NCBI GenBank assembly: GCA_016870395.1
Contig: VGBT01000024.1
Coordinates: 1-37,287 of the forward strand
From: Actinomycetota bacterium
GTDB taxonomy: Bacteria > Actinomycetota > Acidimicrobiia > IMCC26256 > JAENVU01
Direction: 5' to 3'
DNA: 37,287 nt
Both the position numbers and the translations under genes were made by a program. The notes under the pieces were generated by a model. It was not told where the DNA came from and searched no databases. It saw only the letters and a program-made list of their open reading frames with translations. Positions 9,926-16,664 of this stretch are shown in pieces (position 1 is the stretch's first letter; every line of letters starts with the position of its first letter).

Positions 9926-11110
9926 TTACAGCGTCTTCACCAGTGCGGCCTCGCCCTGGCCGCCGCCGCCGCAGAGGGCCGCGGCGCCGAGCCCGCCGCC
10001 GCGGCGGCGCAGCTCGTTGATCATCGTCAGCACGATGCGGGCTCCCGACATGCCGACCGGGTGGCCCAACGCGATCGCGCCGCCGTTCACGTTGACGATC
10101 TCGTCGGTGATGCCCAGGTCGCGCATGCTCGCCACCCCGACCGCGGCGAACGCCTCGTTGAGCTCGAACAGGTCGACGTCGGACACCGCCAGGCCGCTCT
10201 TGGCGAGCGCGGCCTTGATCGCGCCCGACGGCTGGTGCAGCAGCGACGGGTCGGGCCCGGCCACCATCCCGAAGCCCACCAGCTCCGCGATCGGTGTGCA
10301 CCCGAGCGCCTCGGCCTTCTCCCGGCTCATCACGATCAATGCCGCGGCGCCGTCGGAGATCTGCGACGCGTTGCCGGCCGTGATCGTGCCGTCCTTGGTG
10401 AACGCGGGGCGCAGGCCTGCGAGTGACTCGGTGGTCGTGCCGGGCCGGACGCCCTCGTCCTCCTCGACCAGCACCGGGTCGCCCTTGCGCTGCGGGACCG
10501 GCACGGCGACGATCTCCTCGGCGAGCTTGCCCTCCTTCATCGCCGCCGCGGCCCGCTCGTGGCTCTTGGCGGCCATCTCGTCCTGGGCCGCCCGGTCGAT
10601 CGTGCCGGCCGCGGCCGTGTACTTCTCGGTGCCCTCACCCATGTGCACGGCGTCGAACGAGCACCACAGACCGTCGTTGATCAGCGAGTCGAGCAGCTCG
10701 CCGTTGCCCATGCGGTAGCCGGAGCGCGCCTTTGCCAGCAGGTACGGCGCGTTGGTCATCGACTCCATGCCGCCCGCGACCACGATGTCGGCGTCGCCCG
10801 CCTGGATCATCTGGTCGGCGAGGTAGAGCGCGTTGACGCCCGAGAGGCAGACCTTGTTCACCGTGAGCGCGGGCACGCTCATCGGGATGCCGGCGCCGGC
10901 CGCCGCCTGGCGGGCCGTGATCTGACCCTGGCCGGCCTGGAGGACGTGACCCATGATCACGTAGTCGACCTGGTCGCCCGCCACGCCGGCACGGTCGAGC
11001 GCCGCCTTGATCGCGATGCCGCCGAGGTCCATCGCGCTGAACGACGCGAGCGCACCGGAGAGCTTGCCGATCGGCGTGCGGGCGGTGGAGACGATCACGG
11101 AACCGGGCAT
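9926..11110 (-). CDS. Acetyl-CoA C-acetyltransferase (thiolase)
   Basis: A 394-residue thiolase of the biosynthetic/acetoacetyl-CoA type. It has the acyl-accepting C88 (TVNKVCLSG), NEAFA, the HPVGMSGAR His motif (GGAIALGHP) and the C-terminal catalytic Cys in ALCGGGGQGEA. Length and the compact GHVLQAGQGQITARQAA loop fit PhaA-type enzymes. It condenses two acetyl-CoA or cleaves acetoacetyl-CoA. The start is ATG 11110. It is divergent from the crotonyl-CoA carboxylase/reductase gene across 180 bases, which suggests shared control and supply of acetoacetyl-CoA for the C4 route. A remnant copy of its last codons lies downstream. Confidence 0.93.
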   Translation of the reverse strand: MPGSVIVSTARTPIGKLSGALASFSAMDLGGIAIKAALDRAGVAGDQVDYVIMGHVLQAGQGQITARQAAAGAGIPMSVPALTVNKVCLSGVNALYLADQMIQAGDADIVVAGGMESMTNAPYLLAKARSGYRMGNGELLDSLINDGLWCSFDAVHMGEGTEKYTAAAGTIDRAAQDEMAAKSHERAAAAMKEGKLAEEIVAVPVPQRKGDPVLVEEDEGVRPGTTTESLAGLRPAFTKDGTITAGNASQISDGAAALIVMSREKAEALGCTPIAELVGFGMVAGPDPSLLHQPSGAIKAALAKSGLAVSDVDLFELNEAFAAVGVASMRDLGITDEIVNVNGGAIALGHPVGMSGARIVLTMINELRRRGGGLGAAALCGGGGQGEAALVKTL

Positions 11111-11290
11111 GGGGACCCCCGAAGGTGTGCGTGCGGTGTGGTTACCGGCTGGTCACTTGGGATGGTAGCGCCCGCCCCGGCACCCCCGTCCAGGCCGCCC
11201 CCGCCGATCTCGGCACGTACCGGCTCGCCATGCGGACCGGATCGTTCCGAGAATGCGGGGGCCGGGCGAGCGCCGCTACGGTCGGCGGCC

Positions 11291-12643
11291 ATGACGACCG
11301 AGATCGACGCCATCCGCACCGCGATCCTCCAGGGCGCACCTGCCGACGAGCTCGGCGCGCTGCCGCTTCCTGCCGGGGTACGGGGCGCGCTGGTGAAGGC
11401 CTCGGAGCAGGAGATGTTCGCCGGGATGGCCTCGGAGGACAAGGACCCGCGCACCTCCGTGCACGTGGAGGACTTCCCGCTGCCCGAGCTCGCCCCCGAC
11501 GAGGCGGTCGTCGCGGTGATGGCGAGCTCGATCAACTTCAACACCGTGTGGACGTCGATCTTCGAGCCGCTCCCCACGTTCGGCTTTCTCAAGCGCCTCG
11601 GCAAGGAGAGCGTGTGGGGCGCCCGGCACGACCAGCCGTTTCACGTGATGGGCTCCGACGCCGCCGGCGTGGTGCTGAGGGTCGGCTCGGCGGTGCGCAG
11701 CTGGAAGCCGGGCGACACGGTGACGGTCCACTGCAACTACCTCGACGACCAGGACCCGACCGCGCACGACGACTCGATGCTCGCGACCAACCAGCGCATC
11801 TGGGGCTTCGAGTCGAACTACGGCGGCCTCGCCGACCTGGCGATCGTGAAGGCGAACCAGATCATGCCGAAGCCCGCTCACCTCACGTGGGAGGAGGCGG
11901 CGGTCAACGCGCTGTGCAACTCCACGAGCTACCGCATGATCGTCAGCCCGAACGGCTCGCAGATGACCCAGGGTCAGTCGGTTCTGGTGTGGGGCGCGAC
12001 GGGCGGGATCGGCGCCTACGCGTGCCAGTACGTGCTGAACGGCGGCGGTACGCCGGTCGGGGTCGTGTCGAGCGAGTCCCGGGCGACGCTGCTGAACGAG
12101 ATGGGCGTCGAGTCGGTCATCGATCGGCGCGCCGAGGGCTACAAGTTCTGGAGGAGCGACACGGAGCAGGACCCGGCGGAGTGGCGGCGCCTCGGCAAGA
12201 AGATCCGGGAGCTGAACGGCGGCCGTGACGTCGACATCGTGTTCGAGCACCCCGGTCGCTCCACCTTGGGTGCGTCAGTGTTCGTGGCCAAGCGCGGCGG
12301 GATGATCATCACGTGCGCGGCGACGAGCGGTTTCATGATCGAGTACGACAACCGCTACCTCTGGATGAACCTCAAGACGCTGAAGGGGTGTCACTTCGCC
12401 AACTACCGCGAGGCGTGGGAGGCCAACCGGGCGGTGTGCGAGGGCAAGGTCCACCCGACGTTGTCGAAGGTGTACTCACTGGACCAGACGGGCGAGGCCG
12501 CGCTCGCAGTGCATCGCAACGAGGCCGAGGGCAAGGTCGGTGTGCTGTGCCTGGCGCCCGAGGAAGGCCTCGGCGTGACCGACCCCGAGATGCGCGAACG
12601 CCTGCTCCCCCAGATCACCCTGTTCCGCCGCCACGCCGGCTGA
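11291..12643 (+). CDS. ccr: Crotonyl-CoA carboxylase/reductase
   Basis: A 450-residue zinc-less MDR-family enzyme that reductively carboxylates crotonyl-CoA to ethylmalonyl-CoA with NADPH and CO2. Features specific to Ccr: SSINFNTVWTSIFEP, the active-site FESNYGG, EYDNRYLWMNLK and GCHFANYREAWEANR. The four residues known to hold CO2 in the Kitasatospora enzyme (Asn, Phe, Glu, His) have clear counterparts N82, F173, E174 and H368. The nucleotide fold is at GATGGIGAYACQ (235-246). Start ATG 11291 follows from the family length. It is the committing enzyme of the ethylmalonyl-CoA pathway and also supplies extender units to polyketide synthases. No PKS is seen, and an ethylmalonyl-CoA mutase homologue is encoded about 11 kb away. 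Confidence 0.96.
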   Translation: MTTEIDAIRTAILQGAPADELGALPLPAGVRGALVKASEQEMFAGMASEDKDPRTSVHVEDFPLPELAPDEAVVAVMASSINFNTVWTSIFEPLPTFGFLKRLGKESVWGARHDQPFHVMGSDAAGVVLRVGSAVRSWKPGDTVTVHCNYLDDQDPTAHDDSMLATNQRIWGFESNYGGLADLAIVKANQIMPKPAHLTWEEAAVNALCNSTSYRMIVSPNGSQMTQGQSVLVWGATGGIGAYACQYVLNGGGTPVGVVSSESRATLLNEMGVESVIDRRAEGYKFWRSDTEQDPAEWRRLGKKIRELNGGRDVDIVFEHPGRSTLGASVFVAKRGGMIITCAATSGFMIEYDNRYLWMNLKTLKGCHFANYREAWEANRAVCEGKVHPTLSKVYSLDQTGEAALAVHRNEAEGKVGVLCLAPEEGLGVTDPEMRERLLPQITLFRRHAG

Positions 12644-12745: not shown

Positions 12746-14014
12746 TCAGGCGGTCGGGGCGAAGGAGATCAGGCGACCGTCGGCGGTGCCCACGAAGAGG
12801 CGGCCGTTCGACACCGCGGGCGCCCCGGTGACCTGCGTCGCCAGGTCGTGCTCCCACAGCGGCACGCAGGTGGCCGCGCCGCAGCCCGCGGCTGCGAAGG
12901 CGCGCAGCAGCCCACTCGAGGTCGCCGTGTACACCACGCCTCCCGCGATGGCCGCCTGCATTCCAACGGTGGCGCCCGTGTCGGCCGACCACGACGGGTT
13001 GCAGGCTGCCCCTCCACAACCGCCTCGGGCGAACGCGACGAGCTTGCCGGCGGTGGGCACGAAGACATGCGTGTCGTCGACGGACGGTGGCGCGCTCGGG
13101 GCGTCGCTCGTGGGGAGGGGCCCGCTCCACATCGGACCCCCCGTCGACGCGTGGAACGCCCAGAGGTGGCCCGCGTCGCCGGCGAACAGCATCTCCCCGT
13201 CGTCGCTGAGGCTGGGGCGGGTCAACCCGGGGCCGAAGGTCTTGCTCCACGCCGGCGGGCAGACGCGGAACGTGGATCCGACGACCGGGTAGCCGCAGCC
13301 GGCCGGCTCGGTGAACGGGTACGCGTACAGGGTCGCACCGTCCGCGAAGTACCAGAGAGCGGGCCCGACGACGGGGCTCGTCGGCGAGGTGCTGCCGCTG
13401 CCGATGGTGATGACCGAGAGGTTGGCGCCCCAGCCCTGGCTCGGGTCGGCGCGGTTGGCGACGAAGTAGCCGGTGAGGCCGATGCCGGTGCCGAGGATCT
13501 CGCCGTACGTGCCGAAGAGACGGTGGTCCCGTGGCACGGTCACCTCGTTGGCGCTGCGCGCGGTGATGCCGAGGTCCGTGCCGCGCAGCGCGTCGTAGGT
13601 GTGGGTCCCCGAGCCGGGCGCGAAGTTGCGGTAGATGGAGACTGGCACGAAGACCGTGCCGTCCTCGAACGTCGGCGCGCCGGCGCTGACCGGCAGCTGG
13701 GCCGCGAGCCCCGCGTCGTAGAGCAACGTGCGCCAGCGCTCGGTACCGGTCGCCGGATCGATCGTCACCAGCTTGTGTCCGACCGACACGTGCACACCGG
13801 CCACCGAGACGACCGGGTCGCGCACGTACTTGTCGGTCTCCCACTCGGCCTGCCAGGTCCAGTCCGGCTCGAGGTTCGCGACGTTGGCGGGAGTGAGCCC
13901 GTGCTCGTTCGGGTTGTGGCCCGACCGCTCGGGTCCCGCGCCCGGTACGGTCCAGCAGCCGGCGAGCACCACGACCGAGGCGATCGCGACGAGGAGGGAG
14001 TGGCGGCTTCGTAT
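12746..14014 (-). CDS. PQQ-like beta-propeller lipoprotein (copy 2), probable ATA start
   Basis: A secreted lipoprotein of about 422 residues with repeated beta-propeller blades of the PQQ/BamB-like type (for example LVTIDPATGTERWRT, LWAFHASTGGPMWSG, LLRAFAAAGCG). No ATG, GTG or TTG in this frame gives a full signal peptide. The first usable GTG (13972) leaves only MVLAGC before the lipobox Cys. Reading from ATA 14014 gives a proper one: IRSRHSLLVAIASVVVLAGC, with GAGGA seven bases upstream. An in-frame TGA precedes this. I therefore place the start at ATA; a GTG 13972 start is the conservative alternative. Several blades carry paired cysteines (GCGGAACNPSW, GCGAATCVPLW). It lies 15 bases behind its paralogue, so the two are cotranscribed. 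The ligand and function are unknown. Confidence 0.75.
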   Translation of the reverse strand: MRSRHSLLVAIASVVVLAGCWTVPGAGPERSGHNPNEHGLTPANVANLEPDWTWQAEWETDKYVRDPVVSVAGVHVSVGHKLVTIDPATGTERWRTLLYDAGLAAQLPVSAGAPTFEDGTVFVPVSIYRNFAPGSGTHTYDALRGTDLGITARSANEVTVPRDHRLFGTYGEILGTGIGLTGYFVANRADPSQGWGANLSVITIGSGSTSPTSPVVGPALWYFADGATLYAYPFTEPAGCGYPVVGSTFRVCPPAWSKTFGPGLTRPSLSDDGEMLFAGDAGHLWAFHASTGGPMWSGPLPTSDAPSAPPSVDDTHVFVPTAGKLVAFARGGCGGAACNPSWSADTGATVGMQAAIAGGVVYTATSSGLLRAFAAAGCGAATCVPLWEHDLATQVTGAPAVSNGRLFVGTADGRLISFAPTA

Positions 14015-14029
14015 CGTCTGTTCCTCGCG

Positions 14030-15325
14030 TCAGGTCGGTGATGGGGGCGCGTACGTCCGGGTCGAGCCGTCCAAGGCAGCGACGAACACGCGGCCGTCGA
14101 CGACGGCGACGCCGGTGACGCCGTCGCCGAGCAGCGGGTCGCACCACAGCCGGGCGCACACCGACGAGCTGCAGCCGCGCGCCGGATAGGCGGCAATGGT
14201 TCCGCCGGCCGTCCCCACGTAGACGACGTCCCCGCCTATCGAGGGTCGGGCGCTCGCGGCCGAGCCGAGCTGCGCGGTCCACAGGGCGCTGCACGCCGGG
14301 GCGCCGCATCCGCCGGCCGGGAAGGCAGCAAGCGTCCCGTCAGCCCCGGCGGCGAAGATCGAGACGCCGTCGGAGGCGAGCGAGACGTCGGCCGCGTCGC
14401 TCACGACGGCGGTCCACGACGGCGTCCCGGTCGCGGCGTCGAGGACGTGGACGGTGCCGCGGCCGTTGACCACGGCGAGCGTCGAACCGAGCGCGATCGG
14501 GGGACCGACGAGGCCGACACCGAGGTCGCGGGTCCACGTCGCCGGACACAACGTTGCACACGCCGGCGAGAACGCGACGACCCGTGAGCTCTGCGTCGCG
14601 GTGACCAGCCCGCCCGCGACTTCCGCGGGCGCGCCGAACGCGACGGGCCACGTGGCCACGGGCGGTGGCGCGCCGCACCCGCTCACGGTCTCGTGGTGCT
14701 CCCAGATCACGGCGAGCGTCGCCGGGTCGAGCGCGCTGATGCCGCTCGTGATGTTGTACGACTGCTCCGTGAGCGGTCCGCCGTTGCAGTGCGGCACCTG
14801 GACCGACCCGAGGTAGTGCCAGGCGACGACGACCCGTCCGCCGGCGGCCAGCGCGTCCCTCGTCGTGCACGACGAGAAGCCGCTCGGGTAGCCGGTGAGG
14901 TCCTGGAAGCCCAGCGGCCGAGTGCCCAACGTGGCGCCGCGGTCAGCGTCGAGCGCCGTGAGCGAGCACGACCCGCCCGAGGTCGGGACCAGCAGCCGGT
15001 CGGCGACCAGCGTCGGAACCGCGTTGCCCCCCAACGCAACGGGTCCCCAGCGCAGCGCCTTGTCGGCTTCGGCGACCGCCGTCACCGAAGCCGTGTTGCG
15101 CAGGTACACGCTGCCCCGGCCCACTACAGGCTCGTGTGCCACGGCGGGGCCCGTCCGGCTCCACGCGACGGCGAGCCCCGCGACGTTCGCCGCCGTGATC
15201 GAGCGCTCGGCCCCGTTGAAGCCCTGGCGGCCGGAGCCTTGACCGGCCTGGGTCCAGCACCCCGTCGCCACGAGCGCGAGCAGCCCGGCGACGACGAGCG
15301 TCGCGCGCTGGCCTGCTCCGATCAT
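14030..15325 (-). CDS. PQQ-like beta-propeller lipoprotein (copy 1)
   Basis: A 431-residue lipoprotein. The signal peptide is MIGAGQRATLVVAGLLALVATGC, with lipobox VATGC. Mature sequence begins WTQAGQGSGRQGFNGAERSITAANVAGLAVAW, which parallels the second copy (WTVPGAGPERSGHNPNEHGLTPANVANLEPDW). Blade-like repeats include ALDADRGATLG, ALDPATLAVIWEH and VLDAATGTPSW. The second half has Cys-pair units GCGAPACSALW and GCSSSVCARLW, as in the neighbour, so the pair arose by tandem duplication. BamB itself belongs to outer-membrane assembly, which a monoderm lacks, so that role should not be transferred. The start is ATG 15325. It is divergent from the epimerase gene. Confidence 0.8.
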   Translation of the reverse strand: MIGAGQRATLVVAGLLALVATGCWTQAGQGSGRQGFNGAERSITAANVAGLAVAWSRTGPAVAHEPVVGRGSVYLRNTASVTAVAEADKALRWGPVALGGNAVPTLVADRLLVPTSGGSCSLTALDADRGATLGTRPLGFQDLTGYPSGFSSCTTRDALAAGGRVVVAWHYLGSVQVPHCNGGPLTEQSYNITSGISALDPATLAVIWEHHETVSGCGAPPPVATWPVAFGAPAEVAGGLVTATQSSRVVAFSPACATLCPATWTRDLGVGLVGPPIALGSTLAVVNGRGTVHVLDAATGTPSWTAVVSDAADVSLASDGVSIFAAGADGTLAAFPAGGCGAPACSALWTAQLGSAASARPSIGGDVVYVGTAGGTIAAYPARGCSSSVCARLWCDPLLGDGVTGVAVVDGRVFVAALDGSTRTYAPPSPT

Positions 15326-15406: not shown

Positions 15407-15808
15407 ATGGCCCTCACGGAGATCGACCACATCGCGATCGCGGTCCGAGACCTCGACGCCGCCATCGCCTACTACCGCGACACGTTCGGCTGCGAGGTCG
15501 CGCACCGGGAGGTCGTCGCGTCCGACGGCGTGGAGGAGGCCCTGCTCGCCGTGGCCGACTCCTACGTGCAGCTGCTGACCCCGACCTGGGACGACTCGCC
15601 GGTCGCCAAGTTCCTCGAGCGCAAGGGCGAGGGCCTGCACCACGTCGGCTACCGCGTCGACGACTGCGGCGCCGCACTCGCGCAGGTGAAGGCCCAGGGT
15701 CACCGGGTGATCGACGAGGCACCGCGGCCCGGGTCGCGCGGCACCACCGTCGCGTTCGTGCACCCCAAGACCGCGTTCGGCACGCTCATCGAGCTCGTCG
15801 AGGAGTAG
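15407..15808 (+). CDS. mce: Methylmalonyl-CoA epimerase
   Basis: A 133-residue glyoxalase/VOC-fold metalloenzyme that interconverts (2R)- and (2S)-methylmalonyl-CoA; related enzymes also act on ethylmalonyl-CoA. Two beta-alpha-beta-beta-beta modules are visible: DHIAIAVRDLDAAIAYYRDTFGC and HHVGYRVDDCGAALAQVKAQG. Metal ligands would be H8 (IDHIAIAV), the His in GLHHVGYRV and the C-terminal Glu in LIELVEE, with the active-site Glu in EEALLAV. Length is typical (about 130-150). The start ATG 15407 gives the conserved N-terminus. It is the first gene of a plus-strand run leading to an acyl-CoA carboxylase, which suits propionyl-CoA and ethylmalonyl-CoA metabolism. Confidence 0.93.
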   Translation: MALTEIDHIAIAVRDLDAAIAYYRDTFGCEVAHREVVASDGVEEALLAVADSYVQLLTPTWDDSPVAKFLERKGEGLHHVGYRVDDCGAALAQVKAQGHRVIDEAPRPGSRGTTVAFVHPKTAFGTLIELVEE

Positions 15809-15821
15809 GACGGCCGAACCG

Positions 15822-16664
15822 ATGGAGACGGGCCAGGTCGTCCTGGCAGACGGTCGCACGCTCGCGTACCAAGACGGCGAACCGGGTGGCGTCCCCGTCG
15901 TCCTCTTCCACGGCGCGCCCGGCTCTCGCACGTTCCGACCGCCCGAGCACCAGACGCGCGCCGCCGGTGTCCGGCTCGTCACCTTCGACCGTCCCGGCTA
16001 CGGCGGCTCCACAGCGCGAGAGGGCCGAACCGTGCTCGACGCCGTGCCCGACGTGGCTGCGTTGGCCGACGTGCTCCAAGTCGATCGATTCGTCGCGGTC
16101 GCGTGGTCCGGAGGTGGCCCGTTCGCCGTCGCCACCGCCTTCGCGCTCCCGGAGCGCGTGAGGCGCCTGGTGCTTGTGTCCGCGCCGGGACCGCTCGACG
16201 AGGTGCCGGGCGGCTGGGAGGCCCTGGGGGAGTACCGCCGCCCGACCGCCGAGATGGCGCGCGTCGACGCGGCTCGTTCCGTACGCTCGGTGACCCGGCA
16301 CATGGCGCCGTTCCTCGCGGAGCCCGTCGCGTTTCTCGGTGCCGGGCGCGGTCCCGACGGACTGGTGATGGCTGATCCCGCGCTGCGCTCGATGCTCGAG
16401 GCGCAGGTGCGGCTCGCGTTGTGCCAGGGCGCGTCCGGCATCGCGGCCGACCTCGTGGCGATGTGGCTCGACTGGGGGTTCCGCCTCTCCGACGTGCACG
16501 TGCCCACTGCCGTGTTCCACGGCGCGGCCGACCGGAGCAACGGCGAGGACGCACAGGTGTACGCGGCGCGGATCCCCGGTGCCACGCTCACGGTCTGGCC
16601 CGACGCCGGTCATCTCGGCCTGCTCGCCCACTGGCTTGAGGTGCTCGTCGCCGCGTCGGGCTGA
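15822..16664 (+). CDS. Alpha/beta hydrolase
   Basis: A 280-residue alpha/beta hydrolase. The oxyanion-hole motif VVLFHGAPGSR is at 26-36, followed by FDRPGYGGS. The nucleophile elbow is AWSGGG with S96, a non-standard A-x-S-x-G form of GxSxG. The acid is probably the Asp in FHGAADRSNGE and the base the His in PDAGHLGLL. The overall sequence resembles the broad group annotated as hydrolases of aromatic or lipid esters, but the substrate is not predictable. The gene starts 13 bases after the epimerase gene, so it is likely cotranscribed and may release free acid from a CoA ester or other thioester. That role is inference. Confidence 0.85.
   Translation: METGQVVLADGRTLAYQDGEPGGVPVVLFHGAPGSRTFRPPEHQTRAAGVRLVTFDRPGYGGSTAREGRTVLDAVPDVAALADVLQVDRFVAVAWSGGGPFAVATAFALPERVRRLVLVSAPGPLDEVPGGWEALGEYRRPTAEMARVDAARSVRSVTRHMAPFLAEPVAFLGAGRGPDGLVMADPALRSMLEAQVRLALCQGASGIAADLVAMWLDWGFRLSDVHVPTAVFHGAADRSNGEDAQVYAARIPGATLTVWPDAGHLGLLAHWLEVLVAASG

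Follow-up and report, generated by a model that had tools for sequence, protein, structure and literature searches.

The closest described parallels to the gene analyzed here are genes that begin with codons other than ATG, GTG or TTG. The nearest precedent is S. aureus, for which AUA start codons are reported in infC, ccpN and citZ, and where reporters placed the non-canonical sites tested at ~10% of AUG in poor medium, a value that rose to as much as 30% for ccpN in rich medium (PMC13009471). Within the actinobacteria, sigR of Streptomyces is reported to have a GTC start that is repressed by IF3, and the same source gives the start codon of infC as ATT in E. coli and ATC in Streptomyces (PMC5472188). 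Related sources are a 64-codon study of E. coli, cited in PMC9094748 and PMC11497404, and PMC4648390, the topic of which is re-initiation in eukaryotes. The papers found for lipoproteins with an ATA start codon were, judged by titles and the openings of abstracts, not on point. The case described below belongs to this known phenomenon, either as a non-canonical start or as start-codon decay, and the instance itself is new.

The window, meaning the whole stretch of 37,287 nt that was analyzed, is contig 24 of a 2.98-Mb draft genome in 97 contigs. It carries two PQQ_2/BamB-like propeller lipoprotein genes, here called copy 1 and copy 2, that lie in tandem, head to tail, on the minus strand (Table 1). 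Both are in the same frame, with 15 nt between the TGA of copy 1 and the ATA that is the candidate start of copy 2. A preliminary description of this DNA had noted an in-frame TGA ahead of copy 2; it is present, and to that can be added that it terminates the paralogue lying upstream. The pair is bounded by a convergent zinc-type alcohol dehydrogenase frame and by a divergent glyoxalase-fold gene, which we take to be methylmalonyl-CoA epimerase-like. An alpha/beta hydrolase gene (window 15711-16664) adjoins the latter and had no match in the syntenic stretches of two other species of the genus (G001 and G002).

Table 1. Positions in the window of the two propeller genes, the start region of copy 2 and the neighboring genes used as syntenic anchors
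Feature	Position	Strand	Remarks
Copy 2, PQQ/BamB-like beta-propeller lipoprotein gene	12746..14014	-	ATA to stop, 422 codons + stop; PF13360 E 1.4e-16
Copy 1, paralogous propeller lipoprotein, ATG start (MIGAGQRATLVVAGLLALVATGC)	14030..15325	-	Upstream of copy 2
Candidate start codon ATA of copy 2	14012..14014	-	Aligns with ATG of two homologues
GAGGA, moderate Shine-Dalgarno	14022..14026	-	7 nt 5' of ATA; 4 nt contiguous match to own anti-SD
Predicted lipoprotein signal peptide of copy 2, IRSRHSLLVAIASVVVLAG	13958..14014	-	Lipobox Cys codon 13957-13955
TGA terminating copy 1, same frame as copy 2	14030..14032	-	
Glyoxalase-fold gene, divergent, syntenic anchor	15425..15757	+	Pfam match covers part only
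Zinc-type alcohol dehydrogenase frame, convergent, other syntenic anchor	10427..12643	+	

Read on the minus strand, the junction runs TGA (14032-14030) CGC GAG GAA CAG ACG ATA (14014-14012) CGA AGC CGC, and translation from the ATA through the lipobox gives RSRHSLLVAIASVVVLAGC-W (also written IRSRHSLLVAIASVVVLAGC-W). This sequence consists of a positive n-region (RSRH), a hydrophobic h-region (SLLVAIASVVV) and a lipobox (LAGC) that conforms to L-[AS]-[GA]-C, and so the earlier reading of an ATA followed by a normal lipoprotein signal is borne out. The absence of ATG, GTG and TTG between the in-frame TGA and the h-region, which had also been claimed, holds in all frames over the interval that starts 59 nt 5' and ends 41 nt 3' of the ATA. 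Outside it, the first canonical starts of any frame occur at -75/-60, within copy 1 and ahead of its TGA, and at +42/+45; the latter pair is the GTG GTG of VVLAGC, 4 and 5 codons ahead of the lipobox Cys and too late for a signal peptide. Since ORF callers that allow only ATG, GTG and TTG have nothing else to choose, three-start calling begins copy 2 at 13972 with VVLAGC and loses the signal peptide; callers limited in this way set the start beside the gene's own lipobox and thereby hide a lipoprotein. Other origins of the N-terminus were considered and rejected. A frameshift from another start was ruled out, as there is no canonical start in any frame within 59 nt 5' of the ATA. An ATC at signal codon 11 would leave no charged n-region and should be no better spaced from GAGGA, and the spacing should likewise be no better for the ACG directly 5' of the ATA.

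The candidate start is an exceptional codon in this genome. In a 437-kb sample made up of the window and 400 kb of the genome, ATA accounted for 19 of 89,046 codons (0.21 per 1000; 257 GC3-selected coding frames, with the first 60 codons of each dropped), and the ORF of copy 2 contains a single ATA, the one at the candidate start. The chance of finding ATA among 10 given codons is ~0.002, and the placement of this ATA is not random. A looser lipobox scan of the 437 kb returned eight signals. In seven of them a canonical start lies 5' of the h-region; copy 2 is the exception.

The infC gene served as an internal control for near-cognate initiation in the order. It was found at 27 places. All but the second of G019 were inspected (26), and two of these lacked the motif by pattern, leaving 24 (own genome, L067; others among L069-L093). 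In all 24 alignable genomes the codon at the expected start of infC is near-cognate: ATC in 16, including the host's own genome, ATA in six and ATT in two, often preceded by GGTGAT or GAGGTGAT. No canonical in-frame start lies within 40 codons in 13 of the 24, three of them with ATA; the infC of G021 is ambiguous, having a GTG and an ATG just upstream. Given that every one of these starts is ATC, ATA or ATT, in agreement with the infC starts published for E. coli and Streptomyces, the ribosomes of the order very probably accept AUA. This column of infC starts also provides a ready internal control for studies of non-canonical initiation in uncultured Acidimicrobiia.

The GAGGA that had been noted at seven bases from the ATA is present at that spacing, but its strength is limited. 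With the genome's own 16S tail, GGATCACCTCCTTT, it pairs contiguously over 4 nt, either as AGGA at a spacing of 7 or as GAGG at a spacing of 8. Because pairing of equal length occurs at 2,731 of 40,000 random positions (~7%), this Shine-Dalgarno appears acceptable, with a workable spacing, rather than strong. The DNA of the signal peptide (window 13979-14026) carries CTCCCTCCTC, which is complementary to the GAGGA 5' of the ATA. Sequestration of the Shine-Dalgarno by this element was dropped as an idea, the 71-nt fold being no stabler than shuffles (z +0.84). A scan for promoters and terminators returned no promoter-like and no terminator-like site, a kind of scan that is uninformative at so high a GC content.

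In all, 29 homologue rows were examined, among which an N-terminal lipobox was recognized by pattern in 13, namely copy 2 and 12 others. The other 16 rows were not counted, being fragments, other architectures or cases where the pattern missed the lipobox; the last was so for G006 (L012), in which an ATG is present by eye. In all 12 other lipobox homologues the Cys is preceded, at a distance of 18-25 codons, by an ATG or GTG (the frame of one of them, L042, begins at the edge of its stretch), and copy 2 has no canonical start. In the alignment, the ATA column coincides with the Met of L007 and L012, which has the same position with respect to the lipobox. An ATA start was found in none of the relatives, whose starts are ATG or GTG, and a relative with an upstream start in the same frame, a finding that would speak against the preliminary reading, was sought and none was found. 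The homologues also bear on whether a start is needed at all: with both ORFs in the same frame and a single TGA between them, read-through could in principle yield one fused polypeptide in which the signal of copy 2 is an internal membrane segment. We regard this as extremely improbable, as a shared frame is expected one time in three by chance, the homologues of copy 2 are separate genes, each with a start and a lipobox of its own, and a lipobox within a fusion would make little sense.

Closer relatives present a different picture, which the preliminary description overlooked: in them, the gene is broken or eroded. The site of copy 2 is kept in G001 and G002, in both cases without copy 1, and no counterpart of copy 1 was found beside the copy 2 homologues of G001, G002 and G005. 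The syntenic copy of G001 (L045 8720-9300) has an ATG start, but is a pseudogene with an in-frame TAA and with ~residues 98-331 (about 234) missing. In G002 (L068 9766-10103) the gene is reduced to a pair of remnants whose frames differ. A single other close copy is full-length, that of G005, a member of the same family (L044 5264-6511; 53% identical); there the signal sequence, which begins with ATG, is out of frame with the lipoprotein body, a break that may be a real lesion or an assembly error. Searches of 61, 58 and 395 genomes of the class (overlapping sets) returned no further close copies, and neither did a scan of the genome contigs, which gave one locus. As the sole syntenic copy with a start codon is a pseudogene, the notion of an ancestral ATG rests mainly on the more distant homologues. 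In addition, the signal of copy 1 is similar to that of G001 (ALVAT-C), and therefore the ATG of G001 could have its origin in a 5' end like that of copy 1. With these qualifications, of the two options in the preliminary description, that ATA is used or that an ATG was mutated, the second gains support from the ATG or GTG of the homologues and the ATG of the syntenic copy within the genus, and the first is plausible by analogy.

An ATA is one transition away from ATG, and a single wrong base in the consensus, or a mixture of strains, would account for everything if the true codon were ATG and the gene ordinary. The draft state of the genome, with its 97 contigs, and its probable assembly from a metagenome (a relative is a MAG) lend this some weight. 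Nevertheless, we consider such an error quite unlikely, as an error that hits precisely a start codon should be rare, the remainder of the ORF has no sign of error, and the congeners tolerate the gene in damaged form.

The body of copy 2 is intact. Its frame is open for 422 codons with a GC3 of 0.93 and contains no further disabling lesion, and the PF13360 (PQQ_2) profile scores 61.3 bits against a curated cut-off of 27.6. Across 397 codons aligned with the G005 homologue, there are 133, 121 and 208 differences at codon positions 1, 2 and 3, respectively, a pattern that argues for past constraint and cannot date the ATA. An AlphaFold2 model from eight sequences (pLDDT 83.6) is strand-rich and propeller-like, Foldseek matched it to BamB with an E of 2.2e-14, and the best neighbors among solved structures, BamB and tetrathionate hydrolase, share 12-16% identity with it. 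The product is accordingly modeled as a predicted surface lipoprotein propeller. The state of the body matters for the possibility that copy 2 lost its ATG by mutation, has no meaningful initiation at AUA and is a silent pseudogene set to decay. The G001 pseudogene, the G002 remnants, the frame break at the signal in G005 and the weak Shine-Dalgarno are all in keeping with silence, but 422 codons without another lesion and a GC3 that is still 0.93 are not what it would lead one to expect, AUA after a Shine-Dalgarno is reported to initiate measurably elsewhere (PMC13009471), and starts of this kind occur in the infC genes of the clade. On balance we regard complete silence as unlikely, and rank it first among the alternatives, ahead of a base error in the assembly, which in turn ranks ahead of a start selected for low expression.

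The explanation that we favor, and consider fairly probable from the sequences compared, is that an ancestral ATG became ATA in a dispensable duplicate that retains weak, possibly coupled initiation. Copy 2 would be a real and otherwise intact lipoprotein gene in which the change occurred by one transition, relatively recently. Ribosomes that end copy 1 would stop 15 nt upstream, with the GAGGA sitting between the stop and the ATA, and a minority of ribosomes would initiate on AUA with initiator tRNA (fMet), so that the protein would still be produced, exported and lipidated, but in amounts that are a fraction of those from an ATG. The change may have been tolerated because copy 2 is dispensable, as suggested by the eroding or broken state of the gene in the nearest relatives. 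The ATA start thus probably leaves copy 2 weakly translated and on the way to loss, as in those relatives. The case is a small natural test of the extent to which a bacterium tolerates a duplicate whose start codon has degraded.

The same arrangement could be read as a maintained regulatory start, with AUA selected to hold copy 2 low, either sensitive to IF3 or strictly coupled to copy 1, comparable to the GTC of Streptomyces sigR or to infC. The tandem genes in the same frame, 15 nt apart, the intact body of copy 2 and the actinobacterial precedent of an IF3-repressed non-canonical start (PMC5472188) are compatible with such a role. We hold it to be very doubtful, however, given that the ATA was found in no relative, that no equivalent of copy 1 turned up next to the G001, G002 and G005 copies, and that the congeners are losing the gene; decay is favored over a regulatory role because the gene is broken or eroded in the closest relatives. 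Equally improbable, in our judgment, is that the codon sets a dose, with copy 2 receiving its ribosomes solely from copy 1 and being throttled by IF3; were this true, a non-canonical codon would fix an unequal ratio between two surface propeller lipoproteins. Overall, the preliminary description reported a real observation, gave its position correctly and interpreted it correctly for the most part.

Compared with described proteins, copy 2 is like the BamB/PQQ-propeller lipoproteins (PF13360) in its lipobox and propeller, by both profile and fold. It differs from the solved structures of BamB type in sharing only 12-16% identity with them, and its host belongs to an actinobacterial lineage in which, to our knowledge, there is no BAM complex. 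The AUU, AUC and AUA starts of infC (IF3) are of the same near-cognate class as the ATA of copy 2, but they are conserved and autoregulatory, whereas the ATA is singular. Copy 2 shares an AUA in the start position with infC, ccpN and citZ of S. aureus, and the reported restriction of the citZ AUA to strains of one lineage is much like a lineage-specific change of an ATG; the S. aureus starts are documented by ribosome profiling and reporters (PMC13009471), whereas that of copy 2 is read from sequence, with a moderate Shine-Dalgarno. Finally, sigR of Streptomyces resembles copy 2 in being actinobacterial and in having a non-canonical start overlooked by start-codon prediction, but its start is reported as experimentally proven and required for correct SigR levels (PMC5472188), whereas the ATA of copy 2, a candidate start read from the DNA, is shared by no relative.
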